From a virus: a stretch of 35,837 bases of DNA. The stretch's first letter is position 1; each line of letters starts with the position of its first letter. The DNA lies in the IMG/VR virus record IMGVR_UViG_3300050166_000072, positions 1-35,837 of that record. One strand, 5' to 3'. The translations under genes and the position numbers were made by a program. Shown piece after piece: positions 2,391 to 31,846 of the stretch. The notes under the pieces are model-generated. The model had not been told where the DNA came from and made no database searches. It was given only the letters and a program-made list of their open reading frames with translations.

Positions 2391-2430
2391 TCCCGCCACG
2401 GCTTGGCCTGGTTTCGACACCAGGGCGGGA
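2391..2430. terminator. GC-rich hairpin before the transposase gene
   Basis: Outer stem TCCCGC (2391-2396) / GCGGGA (2425-2430) encloses an inner perfect stem CCTGGT (2407-2412) / ACCAGG (2419-2424) with loop TTCGAC. It stands out in AT-rich DNA. Read on the minus strand it is followed by five T, so it could terminate leftward antisense transcripts. On the plus strand no T-run follows, so there it would be a structured leader 19 nt before the transposase start. Confidence 0.6.
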
Positions 2431-2448
2431 ACAAAAAACATAAAACTA

Positions 2449-4527
2449 ATGAATAACGAAAGTCCATACATGTATCACGATAAAAAGCTAGGTGTAAAAA
2501 TCAAATTCTTGATTTTTGACCGAGACTTTCATGTGGATAGTTTAAGGCTAATTAGTTATAAAGCTTTGAACCAACGAATAAGATCTACAACATCAAGCGA
2601 GGTACAATTGAGACGTGCCTCTATTAGCTGTGATGCTCTTGTCTTATTCACAAGCCTATCATTAGACTGGAAAAACCGTTTGACTACCACTTTTGGGAAC
2701 CCTGATGTGGAGGTTAAGAAAAGCTGGTTCAGCCAACACTATGTGGCAGATCGTGAAGCATTCAATTTTTATGTAGGTTATACCTACAATGAAAATCAAA
2801 AGCTCGAGCTTGACATTGTGGAGACGTATACCTATAATGCCTCGGTTCTGAACACGGTTTTGATTATGAAAAATAATCGTAAGCAGTATTTGAAAGCATT
2901 AGGATGTAGCTCGGTAGATATTTGGGACAGTTTAAGCCGTGACGTGAACGCTTTTAGAGACGTACCTCACAATTTACCAACGACAAAGGACTCACTTCGT
3001 TACAAGGCTACAAAATACGCCAAGGAAGGTTATAGTTCTATAATCTCTGGAAAATTTGGTATGAAAAACGCTCTTAAGGTTAAAGAGAAAGAGCAAGAGG
3101 CATTATTGGACGAACTTTTGGCTAAACACACCAATCTTGATAATGAACTAATTAGCAACCTATATAATATGGTTGCTGAGCGCTTGAGCTGGCCAACTAT
3201 AACTGCTCAAACGGTTGGCAACCGTAAAAAAGATAGTAACCTAGTAATTTATGCGGGTCGTAACGGTGTACCGGCTTTATCAAATAATGTTTTGATGCAA
3301 AACAAACGCCAAAAACCAACTACCCCGATGCTTTATTGGACTTTGGACGGATGGGATGCTGAACTTTTGTACCAAAAAACGGCAACAAACAAAGGCGGAT
3401 ATGCTACTACTACTTACCATAACCGTTTAACGATGGTAGTTATTTTGGACGCATTCAACAAATATCCAGTTGGGTACGCTATTGGAACCCACGAAACACC
3501 TGAGTTGATTAAGGAGGCCATGCGCAGCGCAATCAATCATACAGCAGAATTATTTGGTCAAAGATACAATCCACGCCAGCTGCAAAGTGATAACTACCAA
3601 AGTAAGGCATTGACACCGATGTATGAGGCGTGTACCAAGTATTATACACCTGCAAAAATCAAAAATGCTAAGTCTAAGATAGTTGAGCCTTATTTCAACC
3701 ATATCAATAAGACGTATTGCAAGTTGATGGACAACTGGAGTGGTCACAATATTAATAGTGGCTCTAAAAATCAGCCTAATACTGAAATGCTGAATAAGCT
3801 AAGTAAGTTCTTTCCAGACGAGCAAGGATGTAGACAACAATTGGAGGGAATTATAGCTGCTGAACGCGCTAAAAAACAACAGGAATATGTTGCTAACTGG
3901 GACAATGTACCAACTGATTTAAGGCTACCAATGCCAATCGAAAATTATTTGTTAGCTCTTGGATCCAAGTCGGGAATGACTAACAAATTAGTTGGTTCGG
4001 GATTGAATGTAACCATTGGAGGCGCAAAACAGGTATACGATTCATTCGACCTAGACTTTAGAAAACAATCACACCAGGACTGGACAATATTATATGATGC
4101 ACAGGATCAATCACAAGTACTTGCCGTTAGCGCCGACACCAAACATCGATTTATACTAGAACGCAAATTTGTACAGGCAATGGCAATTGATGACCGAGGG
4201 GAGTTTGATACTCAGGAGCTTAAAAAAGTAAACGACTATAACCAAAGGGCAATAGCCTACATCACTGAGGAGCGCGAGGAGAACGCCGCTGTTTTAGAAG
4301 TTCTTTTCGACAATCCACTGCTTAATGATACGCTGGCCAAGCACCTTCTGGTGGATTCAAGAGGGCAGCACAAGGATCAAAAAAGCAAACAGCGACTTGC
4401 CGCTGCACAAGTAGAAAAGGCTTTGCTTAAGCAAGAGAAAGCTGAGAAAAAACAAGCCGAAAAAACGTGGCAAGAAGACCAAAACGAATACATCAACAAG
4501 AAAATAGACATTAACCAATATTTATAA
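2449..4527 (+). CDS. Mu-type DDE transposase (MuA-like)
   Basis: 692 residues, close to the 663 of MuA. It joins phage ends to target DNA, both for integration and replicative transposition. The retroviral-integrase-fold core shows the acidic triad in the right order: D300 in the TLDGWD motif, D381 in QSDNYQ, and E413 in KSKIVEPYF, all in a conserved sequence setting. The N-terminal 250 residues would carry end-binding domains; the C-terminal part (from about 630) is a lysine- and glutamine-rich helix that in Mu contacts MuB and ClpX. The ATPase gene follows 4 bases after the stop. The gene appears intact. Confidence 0.92.
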   Translation: MNNESPYMYHDKKLGVKIKFLIFDRDFHVDSLRLISYKALNQRIRSTTSSEVQLRRASISCDALVLFTSLSLDWKNRLTTTFGNPDVEVKKSWFSQHYVADREAFNFYVGYTYNENQKLELDIVETYTYNASVLNTVLIMKNNRKQYLKALGCSSVDIWDSLSRDVNAFRDVPHNLPTTKDSLRYKATKYAKEGYSSIISGKFGMKNALKVKEKEQEALLDELLAKHTNLDNELISNLYNMVAERLSWPTITAQTVGNRKKDSNLVIYAGRNGVPALSNNVLMQNKRQKPTTPMLYWTLDGWDAELLYQKTATNKGGYATTTYHNRLTMVVILDAFNKYPVGYAIGTHETPELIKEAMRSAINHTAELFGQRYNPRQLQSDNYQSKALTPMYEACTKYYTPAKIKNAKSKIVEPYFNHINKTYCKLMDNWSGHNINSGSKNQPNTEMLNKLSKFFPDEQGCRQQLEGIIAAERAKKQQEYVANWDNVPTDLRLPMPIENYLLALGSKSGMTNKLVGSGLNVTIGGAKQVYDSFDLDFRKQSHQDWTILYDAQDQSQVLAVSADTKHRFILERKFVQAMAIDDRGEFDTQELKKVNDYNQRAIAYITEEREENAAVLEVLFDNPLLNDTLAKHLLVDSRGQHKDQKSKQRLAAAQVEKALLKQEKAEKKQAEKTWQEDQNEYINKKIDINQYL

Positions 4528-4531
4528 CCAC

Positions 4532-5494
4532 ATGGATCATATCACTAAAAAAGAAGTAATTGCTGCGTTGAATGAATATATGCAGACCCATAAAATGACA
4601 CAAGCCGATGTCGCTAATAAAGCGGGTGTTAGAAAGGAATATTTATCTATCATTTTAAAGCCAGATAGCGATTTCATGTATGATGCCGGGGCTAATGGTA
4701 AAGGTTTTATTCCTGTAAAACACTTTAATGCTTTAGCAGAAATGTGTGGCTACAAAACTGAAAAGGAGTATTGGCAAACACAACCTACCGCTCAAACAAG
4801 TGCTATTCTTGCCAACTTGGAAGATGCCAAGAAACATCACCTAACAATTACGCTAATTGGCGAAACTGGTTCTGGTAAATCCTATACGGCAAATTTGTTT
4901 GCCGCTAAAAACCCGCTAGATACATTCGTAATAACAGCGGGTTCTAGTGATACGCTTTCAGATTTGATTGATAAGATTATGGAAGAGTTAAAGATTCACG
5001 CAACGGGGCGTTCTAAGTCAACTAAAATCCGTCAAATAGCTACTTCCATGAGAATGCTTAAAAACTATGGACACACACCTATGCTAATTGTAGATGAGTC
5101 AGAGTACTTAAAGCAGGCAGCACTTTGTGCAATGAAGGAGCTATACGATAATCTTAAAGACTACTGCTCACTAGTTTTCATTGGTACAGACCAGCTTGTT
5201 GACAATGTGGAGCGATTAAAGAGGCGTAACAAATCCGGTATCCCGCAATTTCACAGACGCATCAAATTTGGTTTGCGATTACTACCCAATATCGACAGAA
5301 GCTACGCCTTATTTGTTAATGATATTGAGGATAGACAGTTGAAAAGATTTATTCTTTCGAACTGTGGCAACTATGGAGAGTTGCACGATATCATTGTGCC
5401 AGCCACTCGTGAAGCTGAACGTTTGGGAGAACCATTAAGTTTAGATATAGTTAGAAAAGTATTAAATCTACCAGAAGGTAATTTGATATGGTAA
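4532..5494 (+). CDS. MuB-like target-selection ATPase
   Basis: 320 residues, matching MuB (312). Residues about 5-45 form a Cro-like HTH (KMTQADVANKAGVRKEYLS). A AAA+ ATPase follows with Walker A GETGSGKS at 110-117 and Walker B MLIVDESE at 184-191. MuB binds DNA as ATP filaments, delivers target DNA to the transposase and gives target immunity; those roles are inferred from the family and from its place directly after the transposase. Its last codons overlap the start of the next ATPase gene by 7 bases. Confidence 0.9.
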   Translation: MDHITKKEVIAALNEYMQTHKMTQADVANKAGVRKEYLSIILKPDSDFMYDAGANGKGFIPVKHFNALAEMCGYKTEKEYWQTQPTAQTSAILANLEDAKKHHLTITLIGETGSGKSYTANLFAAKNPLDTFVITAGSSDTLSDLIDKIMEELKIHATGRSKSTKIRQIATSMRMLKNYGHTPMLIVDESEYLKQAALCAMKELYDNLKDYCSLVFIGTDQLVDNVERLKRRNKSGIPQFHRRIKFGLRLLPNIDRSYALFVNDIEDRQLKRFILSNCGNYGELHDIIVPATREAERLGEPLSLDIVRKVLNLPEGNLIW

Positions 5495-6646: not shown

Positions 6647-6880
6647 ATGAATTTAAACAAAATAGTAACACGATTAGAATTTCTCAGCACAGCGCTATTC
6701 AATGATAGTCAAGAGAAAGAAGTAGGAAAGGCTGGTTTTTTCACAGTTGGCGAAAGAATTAGCATCAATCAAGAGAGAGGATACCTCTACTCGGCTAGAG
6801 GGGAAGATGAGCTTCGTGAATATAAAGTTCCAGATTGGATCGAACTTAAAATAATAAAAAGTCATGGACAAAATAAATAA
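6647..6880 (+). CDS. Hypothetical early protein
   Basis: 77 residues from ATG 6647, one base after the preceding stop. The sequence looks like a small beta-rich fold (VGKAGFFTVGERISINQ). Its end overlaps the next gene by 17 bases. Function unknown. Confidence 0.55.
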   Translation: MNLNKIVTRLEFLSTALFNDSQEKEVGKAGFFTVGERISINQERGYLYSARGEDELREYKVPDWIELKIIKSHGQNK

Positions 6881-7583
6881 TATAACCGTAAACAACCCTG
6901 AAATTATGAACACAGAAAAAATTGATTTAAAATCGCTATCGCCAAATGCTTTGAAAGAACTAAAAGCGGCAGTTGCACAAGAGGAAAAGGAAAAGAAACA
7001 ACTCCATAAGGAAAACGTAGAATCCTTTAAAAAGTTAGGTCACGAGTTTCTTGAAAAACATATCGATAGTTTGGCTAACCGCCAACTAGACATGGAAAAA
7101 ACAGTAGGTATTATTTTTAAAGAAATATCAGAGTATTTAGCGCTTAAGGCGGAATTGTATGGTGTTGAAAGATTAGACCAAGACAGCCACACAATTACAC
7201 AAGCGGATGGTTCTTGCTCTATCACCATAGGCTATAATCCGGGAATCACATTTGATGGATCAGAAAGCGCAGGAGTTCAAAAAATTATGGATTACATCAC
7301 CACTCTATCTGGCGATCCAGAGGATGAGAACGCTCAAAAGCTGGCCAAAGCAGTAAAGTTCTTTTTAAAACCCAATTTTAAAACAGGGATGCTTAATCCT
7401 GGTCGAATTATTCAGCTAAACCAAATGCGATCTGATTTTAATTCCCCTGAATTTGATGAAGGAATGGATATTATTGAAGAGGCGCGCAACAAAACAAAAG
7501 GCAGCGCGTATGTATGTGGCTATAAGCATGTTGATATAGGCGACAATCGTACTCGTAAACTTGAATTTAGATTTACGGTGTAA
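6864..7583 (+). CDS. DUF3164-like Mu-type early protein
   Basis: 239 residues. An acidic/basic coiled-coil N-terminus (about 30-75) leads into a C-terminal domain with DGSCSITIGYNPGITFD, then LSGDPEDENAQ and a terminal beta-rich stretch. This layout and its position after the transposition genes fit the DUF3164 family that is common in Mu-like phages, whose biochemical role is unsettled. A second possible start is ATG 6906. It overlaps both neighbours, consistent with coupled translation. Confidence 0.7.
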   Translation: MDKINNITVNNPEIMNTEKIDLKSLSPNALKELKAAVAQEEKEKKQLHKENVESFKKLGHEFLEKHIDSLANRQLDMEKTVGIIFKEISEYLALKAELYGVERLDQDSHTITQADGSCSITIGYNPGITFDGSESAGVQKIMDYITTLSGDPEDENAQKLAKAVKFFLKPNFKTGMLNPGRIIQLNQMRSDFNSPEFDEGMDIIEEARNKTKGSAYVCGYKHVDIGDNRTRKLEFRFTV

Positions 7584-7780
7584 TGATAACAATAAAACCC
7601 ATTCAAGATCACGAGACCTATGAGGTTAACGGTAAGGAGGTCTATAAAGACACCAACGGCAACTGGATAAATAAGGGAGACTTATCCGAAGCAGAGAATA
7701 GGGCTTTTAGAACCTATAAAAGGCAGGTAATTGATAACCCACGATTTATAAAACACACTAAAGCCTCTTATAAAGAGTAG
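7583..7780 (+). CDS. Small hypothetical protein
   Basis: 65 residues. Its ATG overlaps the TAA of the DUF3164-like gene, a strong sign of coupling. The sequence is polar with a short beta-strand pattern (HETYEVNGKEVYKDTNGNW). No family is recognised. The gene ends 22 bases before the tRNA-like element. Confidence 0.6.
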   Translation: MITIKPIQDHETYEVNGKEVYKDTNGNWINKGDLSEAENRAFRTYKRQVIDNPRFIKHTKASYKE

Positions 7781-7802: not shown

Positions 7803-7876
7803 CCCCAAGTCGTATAACTAGGTAATAGCAAAGAAACGTCAGGACTGGAATGCGGGTTCGAATCCCGCCTTGGGGG
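7803..7876 (+). ncRNA. tRNA-like element lacking an anticodon stem
   Basis: 74 nt with tRNA dimensions. Acceptor stem CCCCAAG (7803-7809) / CTTGGGG (7869-7875) is a perfect 7 bp, with G7876 as discriminator, then CTA rather than CCA. T-arm GCGGG / CCCGC (7852-7856, 7864-7868) encloses the canonical loop TTCGAAT. A 3-bp D-stem TAT (7813-7815) / ATA (7825-7827) encloses loop AACTAGGTA with the conserved GG. The 17 nt that should form the anticodon arm (7830-7846) pair at only one of five positions, and no U33 is present. It looks like a decayed or repurposed tRNA. A competing helix can form between 7805-7811 and 7843-7848. Confidence 0.7.
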
Positions 7877-7898
7877 CTAATTTTAAAACAAACAGACA

Positions 7899-8147
7899 AT
7901 GTGTAAATGCTTAGAAAAAATTAGGGAAAACATTATTCAAAATGAAAAAGCCAACTATGTCAGAATTGACTGCTCTACAATTAGAGTAAGATTTGAAAAT
8001 GGTAAGGACATTGAGAATGTTACGGGTCAAAGAATTGAAATAGGATATGACCATGTTAAAAGAGACGGAACGATTCAAAAGAAAGAAAGAAAATCATTTA
8101 TTACCCATGACTTTTGCCCTTTTTGTGGAAAAGAATATAAACCTTAA
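7899..8147 (+). CDS. Small zinc-binding-like protein
   Basis: 82 residues. Cysteines at the N-terminus (MCKC) and near the C-terminus (FCPFCGKEY) form two C-x-C / C-x2-C pairs that could bind one zinc ion as a ribbon. It begins 23 bases after the tRNA-like element. Function unknown. Confidence 0.6.
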   Translation: MCKCLEKIRENIIQNEKANYVRIDCSTIRVRFENGKDIENVTGQRIEIGYDHVKRDGTIQKKERKSFITHDFCPFCGKEYKP

Positions 8148-30928: not shown

Positions 30929-31846
30929 ATGGCAAATTTAAATACAATTAAAAACTGGTTTAAAACCGGTTCAAAACCTACCCAACAGCAGTTCTCAGAC
31001 ACTTGGGATAGTTTTTGGCATAAGTATGATAATATCCCTGTGGCCAAGATTGATGGAGTTGACAATTTGCTCAATCAAAAAGCAAATAAAAGTGTGGTGG
31101 ATAATCATTTGACTGATTCCAATGCACATGCTGAAAAATTTAGTACTAAAGAAGATAAATCTAAAAAGGGACAAGCCGGAGGCTATGCGCCTTTAGATGA
31201 ATTTGTAAAAATTGCTGCCGACTATTTACTAATTGTTGATGACTTAGTTACAGGTGGAACCGATAGAATTTTATCCGCGCAACAGGGCGTTGAGTTGCAA
31301 TCTCAGATCAATCAAATTAATGTATTGTTAGAATCTAATGATGTTAATCTTGATAATGTTCAAGAACTAGTAGATGCAATAAAAACTATTCAAACATCAT
31401 TACAAACTATTTTAATTAATGATTTAACTACGGGTGGCGTTACAAAAGCGCTTACAGCTGAACAGGGATTAGTTTTAAAGCAATTAATTGACTTAAAGGT
31501 GTCACCCACACAATTGCAACAAGTGGCCAGGCCGTATAAAGTTTATACTGCAGTAATGTCTCAATCAGGTACTAATGCGCCACAGGCTACTATTCTTGAA
31601 AACACTATTGGCGAAATTATTTGGTCTAGAGTCTCTGCCGGGATATATAGAGGGACACTAGCGTCAGGATTTACCTTTGATAAAATGGCTTTATTTTATG
31701 GAGCTACTGCAAATCTAAATTCAGGGCACATATTCACAATATACAGGGAAGATTATAATAATTTAATAATCAGAACTTCAAATCAATATGCAACTGCAGA
31801 TGGAAATTTTTTACCTAACACAATAGAAATTCGAATTTATGACTAA
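30929..31846 (+). CDS. Tail fibre protein with repeated DLTTGG motif
   Basis: 305 residues. The N-terminus (ANLNTIKNWFKTGSKPTQQQF) is typical of Bacteroidota phage fibres. Two repeats occur, DDLVTGGTDRILSAQQGVEL and NDLTTGGVTKALTAEQGLVL, a common fibre shaft motif. The C-terminal part from about 215 is beta-rich and may be a knob or binding domain. The stop overlaps the holin-like gene. Confidence 0.75.
   Translation: MANLNTIKNWFKTGSKPTQQQFSDTWDSFWHKYDNIPVAKIDGVDNLLNQKANKSVVDNHLTDSNAHAEKFSTKEDKSKKGQAGGYAPLDEFVKIAADYLLIVDDLVTGGTDRILSAQQGVELQSQINQINVLLESNDVNLDNVQELVDAIKTIQTSLQTILINDLTTGGVTKALTAEQGLVLKQLIDLKVSPTQLQQVARPYKVYTAVMSQSGTNAPQATILENTIGEIIWSRVSAGIYRGTLASGFTFDKMALFYGATANLNSGHIFTIYREDYNNLIIRTSNQYATADGNFLPNTIEIRIYD

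Follow-up and report, generated by a model that had tools for sequence, protein, structure and literature searches.

What is an RNA with the outline of a tRNA, but without an anticodon arm, doing between two early genes of a Mu-like phage? The window, by which we mean the whole stretch of DNA analyzed here, comprises the 35,837 bases of an IMG/VR virus record, whose early operon encodes a transposase of the Mu type, a MuB-like ATPase, and a DUF3164 protein. The features that bear on the question, including the parts of the RNA itself, are the following, in order along the window:

2391..2431, plus strand: second, variant element, 18 nt 5' of the MuA start
2449..4527, plus strand: Mu-type transposase (MuA), the gene 3' of the second element (phrog_310 transposase, 4e-29)
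4532..5494, plus strand: MuB-like transposition ATPase (phrog_296, 8e-40; TniB)
6864..7583, plus strand: DUF3164 gene of the early operon (PF11363, 7e-11)
7583..7780, plus strand: 65-aa early gene, its stop codon 22 nt 5' of the main element
7803..7876, plus strand: main element, an anticodon-less tRNA-like element (structure, Rfam tRNA match, syntenic homologues, and covariation)
7803-7809 with 7869-7875, plus strand: acceptor of the main element, CCCCAAG with CTTGGGG (7/7 pairs)
7821-7822, plus strand: D-loop GG (G18G19) of the main element
7830-7851, plus strand: unpaired middle of the main element
7852-7868, plus strand: T-arm of the main element, GCGGG-TTCGAAT-CCCGC, with a perfect 5-bp stem
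7876, plus strand: discriminator G of the main element
7877..7879, plus strand: C74-T-A 3' of the discriminator, the R-C-[A/T]-A signature common to other elements
7899..8147, plus strand: variable small early gene, its ATG 23 nt past the acceptor 3' end

A sequence-only reading had described at 7803-7876 a perfect 7-bp acceptor, a 5-bp T-arm with a TTCGAAT loop, and a D-loop GG within 74 nt, all of which we confirmed. The D-stem forms three of its four pairs (T-A, A-T, and T-A, plus a G-G mismatch), and the anticodon arm, said to pair at one of five positions and to lack U33, indeed retains only the 27-43 pair and has an A at position 33. Compared with a functional tRNA, the acceptor, T-arm, and D-loop GG are thus present, whereas the anticodon stem, the 7-nt loop, and U33 are absent. 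The Rfam tRNA model (RF00005) spans the element from end to end with 30.1 bits, against a cutoff (GA) of 29 (E 0.017 for the whole window and 1.2e-4 for the local stretch); ARAGORN called no tRNA at 7803-7876. The minimum free energy (MFE) fold retains the acceptor and T-arm (-21.4 kcal/mol), the fold energy alone being unremarkable (z -1.06). An alternative pairing of 7805-7811 with 7843-7848, also proposed from the sequence, does exist (6 bp with a bulge), but it is not part of the MFE fold and looks incidental since it is impossible in relatives whose middle is 9-14 nt long. With a structural scanner that searches for a T-arm and, immediately after it, an acceptor strand whose partner lies upstream, the element scores 34, while in Markov-shuffled loci about 0.1 matches reach 30 and none reach 31. 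The case against chance is comparative, resting on this score and on the recurrence of the element at the same junction in relatives. The anticodon-less tRNA shape at 7803-7876 is real and belongs to a large class of small tRNA-like RNAs.

Relatives among Bacteroidota Mu-like phages were gathered with the DUF3164 and 65-aa proteins as queries. At the junction of the main element their arm sequences differ, but the architecture is kept, with acceptor and T-arm, a spacer GG, and an R73-C74-N-A 3' end, and the middles vary between those of complete tRNA bodies whose anticodon loop is wrecked and stretches of only 9-14 nt. L009 and L010 carry near-identical copies of the main element, and the small gene at 7899..8147 is missing in L010 although the same element is there. 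L008 has a full tRNA body in which the anticodon loop is replaced by an insert of ~38 nt with a hairpin, and its flanks are 81% identical to those of the window while the element sequence is different. L005 has the two arms with a 25-nt middle, and L004 and L007 have minihelices with middles of 11-14 nt. The scanner found 29 matches at 30 or above in the relatives' loci, as opposed to 0.1 in shuffled loci, and the only minus-strand match at 25 or above is that of L009, a contig stored in reverse. An element lies within 1 kb downstream in at least 20 of 36 DUF3164 loci (18 by scanner and two more by model, in L018 and, after correction of the start, in L039), and since about half of these loci have no detectable element, it is not essential. 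None of the relatives has a homologue with a normal anticodon arm, and the arms have not decayed at random: acceptor, T-arm, and GG are retained. One Bacteroidota Mu-like phage (L040, 1060-1200) has a tRNA-like element with a 108-nt middle, along with two more minihelices. With a bias opposite to that of host tRNAs, the Bacteroidota acceptors favor U1-A72 and a 5' strand rich in pyrimidines (UCCC), as for example at 5651-5657 of L007. A pattern search of 395 genomes covering the class of the Flavobacterium host matched six, some of them at unrelated palindromes, and the TCCCG form is therefore rare outside phage sequence.

The sequence-only reading missed both the second element of the window and the wide distribution described below. 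The variant at 2391-2431 consists of a TCCCGC/GCGGGA acceptor, a GG-containing spacer CACGGCTTGG, a CCTGG/CCAGG T-stem, and an 8-nt T-loop TTTCGACA, and is followed by A-C-A-A. It is the top window match of covariance model R1 (14.6 bits, E 0.16, weak alone), with a fold z of -2.7. In its place a sister phage, L195, has a canonical element (46.9 bits, 14 nt 5' of the MuA ATG), and elements also precede MuA in L182 and in a phage of P. gingivalis, L225. In the latter (Porphyromonas phage phage013a), the anticodon-less tRNA-like element occupies 3096-3165 and separates the methyltransferase gene from MuA; since MuA is annotated to start within it (3111), the true ATG is probably at about 3183.

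A pattern scan of viral contigs returned at least 120 stretches, some of them ordinary phage tRNAs and many of them minihelices. In the Mycobacterium phages Send513 and Indlulamithi and in Joe, a Streptomyces phage, early gaps of ~90-100 nt nearly all hold an element, in the order 40-nt element, second hairpin, Shine-Dalgarno sequence, and start codon. When the count is restricted to gaps of 70 nt or more in the examined early stretches, an element is present in 10 of 13 gaps in Send513, 12 of 14 in Indlulamithi, and 7 of 9 in Joe (8 of 9 by eye, after correcting a mis-chosen acceptor), all in sense orientation. A scan of the Send513 structural genes found no elements beyond chance. A 44-nt consensus matches 138 named phage records at 671 places, with no annotated feature under it among the matches listed. 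Several annotations are touched by these elements. Two in Send513 (L221; 12612-12654 and 13643-13707) overlap the annotated starts of gp56 and gp59, which suggests that those start codons are annotated too far upstream. The second hairpin in the early gaps of L221 and L220 is itself conserved, with a variable stem, and lies after each element just before the Shine-Dalgarno sequence. In the classic Streptomyces phage phiC31 (L226, NC_001978), the gp13-gp14 gap holds a complete tRNA body that is not annotated and whose anticodon loop bears a hairpin (31424-31509). The early inverted repeats of phiC31, which were reportedly treated in an older terminator paper, were considered as further elements and rejected, for they differ in sequence and phiC31 has one long tRNA-like element only.

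These RNAs are marks at cistron junctions, in sense orientation. A stop codon within 40 nt upstream together with an ATG within 60 nt downstream is found for 90 of 142 elements, compared with 9.8% of random positions on the same strands, the median distances being 10 nt from the upstream stop and 29 nt to the downstream ATG. A role as tRNA attachment site, rightly considered unnecessary from the start for a Mu-like phage, is ruled out by this mode of insertion, by the multiple copies per phage, and by the position of attP in Joe (36556, with elements at 43-48 kb).

For conservation, we used 149 unique short elements and a curated alignment of 22 members that includes the window. Nearly all of the short elements have a TTCGANY T-loop, 143 have a spacer GG (86 expected from letter shuffles), and 108 have a C after the discriminator. 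C74 is invariant in the curated alignment (22/22); across the alignments G53, A58, and C74 are near-invariant or invariant, C75 is usually not C, and A76 is usually kept. The two nucleotides after GG go with the T-loop variant, GGTT being combined with TTCGATT 43 times and GGCA with TTCGAGT 27 times, a correlation that points to D-loop/T-loop elbow contact, with counts inflated by shared ancestry. The compensatory changes in acceptor and T-arm that the sequence-only reading proposed to look for were found, with the D-loop GG retained and only the middle varying: two-sided changes affect 11 of 12 arm pairs in the 7+5 class and 11 of 11 in the 5+6 class. Covariation scores are 0.86 and 0.96, respectively, versus ~0.20 for shuffled and at most 0.21 for slid controls, while figures of 100% pairing arise partly by construction since the scanner demands good pairing. 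In a check independent of the acceptor, 33 of 34 GGTTCGANTCC T-arms in named phages adjoin an acceptor helix with a short middle, the remaining one being an annotated tRNA-Gln; of the 21 such T-arms in Bacteroidota records, 17 go with a short middle and four belong to long tRNA-like elements. The coaxial acceptor and T helix measures 12 bp in the window and the 7+5 class, and 11 bp in the 5+6 class. Arms-only alignments were used because MAFFT misplaced the acceptor columns when the middles were included. The covariance model of the 5+6 class recovers only the T-arm of the 74-nt window element, as expected from its 42-nt middle. Finally, host tRNA genes in three Bacteroidota genomes encode N73-C74, mostly without a full CCA, and the phage elements therefore carry the host precursor signature.

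We propose that the elements probably act in cis, mimicking tRNAs so that host RNase P can punctuate the polycistronic mRNA of the phage. The early-operon RNA would fold into a coaxial helix of acceptor and T-arm (11-12 bp), in which the D-loop-like GG and the T-loop would form a tRNA elbow and R73-C74 would lie on the 3' side; since the anticodon arm is lost or replaced, there would be no decoding function. Host RNase P would recognize this structure and cut just 5' of the acceptor, in the window before 7803. The cut would free the upstream cistron, with its stop codon 22 nt away, from the downstream mRNA, whose first part would be a stable hairpin, with the next start codon 23 nt further on. 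Each segment of a polycistron punctuated in this way would have its own ends and its own stability. The structure, its covariation, the sense placement between cistrons, the recurrence in unrelated phages, and the host-like 3' signature were observed, whereas we infer that RNase P is the reader, where it cuts, and how expression is affected; for a cut by this enzyme at the acceptor 5' end, the argument comes from the retained GG, G53, A58, R73, and C74, the usual A76, and the host precursor signature. RNase P cuts hairpins made of acceptor, T-stem, and T-loop at the correct site, takes a 12-bp distance as its measure, and shows strong interference at G19, G53, A58, and G71 (PMC11143913). The discriminator and first 3' Cs (R73-C74-C75) pair with the P15 loop of RNase P, and A76 stacks on that helix (PMC11143913). 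Some features point the other way. C75 is usually not C, which leaves the RCC pairing with RNase P RNA incomplete, and many elements have an 11-bp rather than a 12-bp helix, both of which weaken a reading by RNase P; moreover, Bacteroidota members prefer U1-A72 over G1-C72. As for the earlier suggestion of a signal for RNase P and RNase Z between early genes, the comparative data support mRNA processing and would fit RNase P, but nothing supports the RNase Z half. Some members retain a complete tRNA body in which the anticodon loop is broken, and tRNAs are therefore the probable ancestors of the class. More broadly, we lean toward the view that phages of at least two bacterial phyla, both Mu-like and non-Mu, share tRNA-elbow mimics of 40-110 nt, which arose repeatedly from tRNAs that lost their anticodon arm and which serve as a general punctuation by which host RNase P would segment early polycistronic mRNA gene by gene.

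The acceptor and T-arm are also the part of a tRNA bound by RNase Z, EF-Tu, and CCA-adding or T-arm-modifying enzymes. One of these, or RNase P and RNase Z together, could read the cis-acting mimics instead of RNase P alone, for example releasing a small stable RNA or marking mRNA ends. This we hold to be unlikely, while giving it some weight: the common binding part is retained, the G18G19/T-loop elbow is conserved, and the strict discriminator-C-N-A 3' side is equally compatible with 3' processing, but the mid-operon site with a stop codon near the 5' edge favors a 5' cut, and the kept C74 also belongs to the RNase P RCCA contact. Lacking an anticodon, a released mimic would resist anticodon nucleases and could act in trans as a decoy that soaks up host tRNA-directed defenses or enzymes. 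The swap of the whole element between close relatives with 81% identical flanks (L008 and the window) would be in line with a decoy; nevertheless, release would require two cuts, and many different copies, one per junction, suggest a role in cis, making a decoy very improbable. It is also very unlikely that the hairpin is a transcription terminator or mRNA-end stabilizer with an incidental resemblance to tRNA. Stable intergenic hairpins are common and there is a weak terminator-like match over 7863-7875, but a U-run is absent after the elements in actinophages and most Bacteroidota members, which have TAATTTTAAAA or A-rich sequence downstream. Furthermore, a terminator needs neither the TTCRA loop nor the GG spacer, the loop-loop correlation, or C74, and an operon with a terminator at almost all of its early junctions would be silenced. 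Lastly, a decayed phage tRNA gene without function, an option left by the sequence-only reading, is scarcely credible and we reject it, for although whole tRNA bodies with a broken anticodon loop do occur (L008, L035, L225, and phiC31 31424-31509), compensatory changes in 11 of 12 arm pairs, the retained GG, syntenic retention, and 8-13 copies per phage in strict intercistronic sense placement all speak against decay.

The proposed punctuation by host RNase P has several known parallels. Model substrates of RNase P (AT1-type hairpins) have the same minimal acceptor stem, T-stem, and T-loop, with correct cleavage shown for synthetic RNAs (PMC11143913), whereas the phage elements are natural, lie at cistron junctions, and mostly have an added D-loop-like GG. 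Natural substrates other than tRNAs include phage M3 RNA, phage antisense C4 RNA, T4 gene 32 mRNA, and E. coli operon mRNAs (PMC11143913). Here too host RNase P cuts the RNA of a phage or an operon, but each is an individual case, while the elements recur as a covarying class that reaches 13 copies per genome. The phage elements can also be likened to mitochondrial tRNA punctuation, where tRNA structures delimit mRNAs and direct the cutting of a long transcript; those marks, however, function as tRNAs and are cut out by RNase P and RNase Z (PMC4394434), and the phage elements are non-decoding, with only the elbow kept. The tRNA-like domain of tmRNA (RF00023) likewise has an acceptor and T-arm without an anticodon arm, and elements of L059 match it weakly in cmscan (19-20 bits against a gathering score of 47), but the elements are without reading frame or pseudoknots, and the window has no RF00023 match. 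The window element also scores with the model of phage-encoded tRNAs (RF00005, 30.1 bits versus GA 29), but it differs from them in having no anticodon arm and no ARAGORN call, and such elements are unannotated in named phages among the matches listed. No Rfam family covers the short form. Individual phage and operon substrates of RNase P, and mitochondrial punctuation by real tRNAs, are already known. A class of anticodon-less tRNA mimics repeated at phage gene junctions is apparently undescribed, with no Rfam family, annotation, or report in the searchable literature, which covers few subscription papers, so that prior mention is possible.

The proposal is directly testable in named phages on laboratory hosts, such as Send513 on M. 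smegmatis and Joe on S. coelicolor. If true, the elements would be a new annotation target and a source of natural minimal RNase P substrates for the design of synthetic operons, and the regular early-region gaps of 90-100 nt in many actinobacteriophages would be explained. RNase P, known mainly for tRNA maturation, would be used by many phages to cut their mRNA cistron by cistron, a bacterial-virus counterpart of mitochondrial tRNA punctuation.
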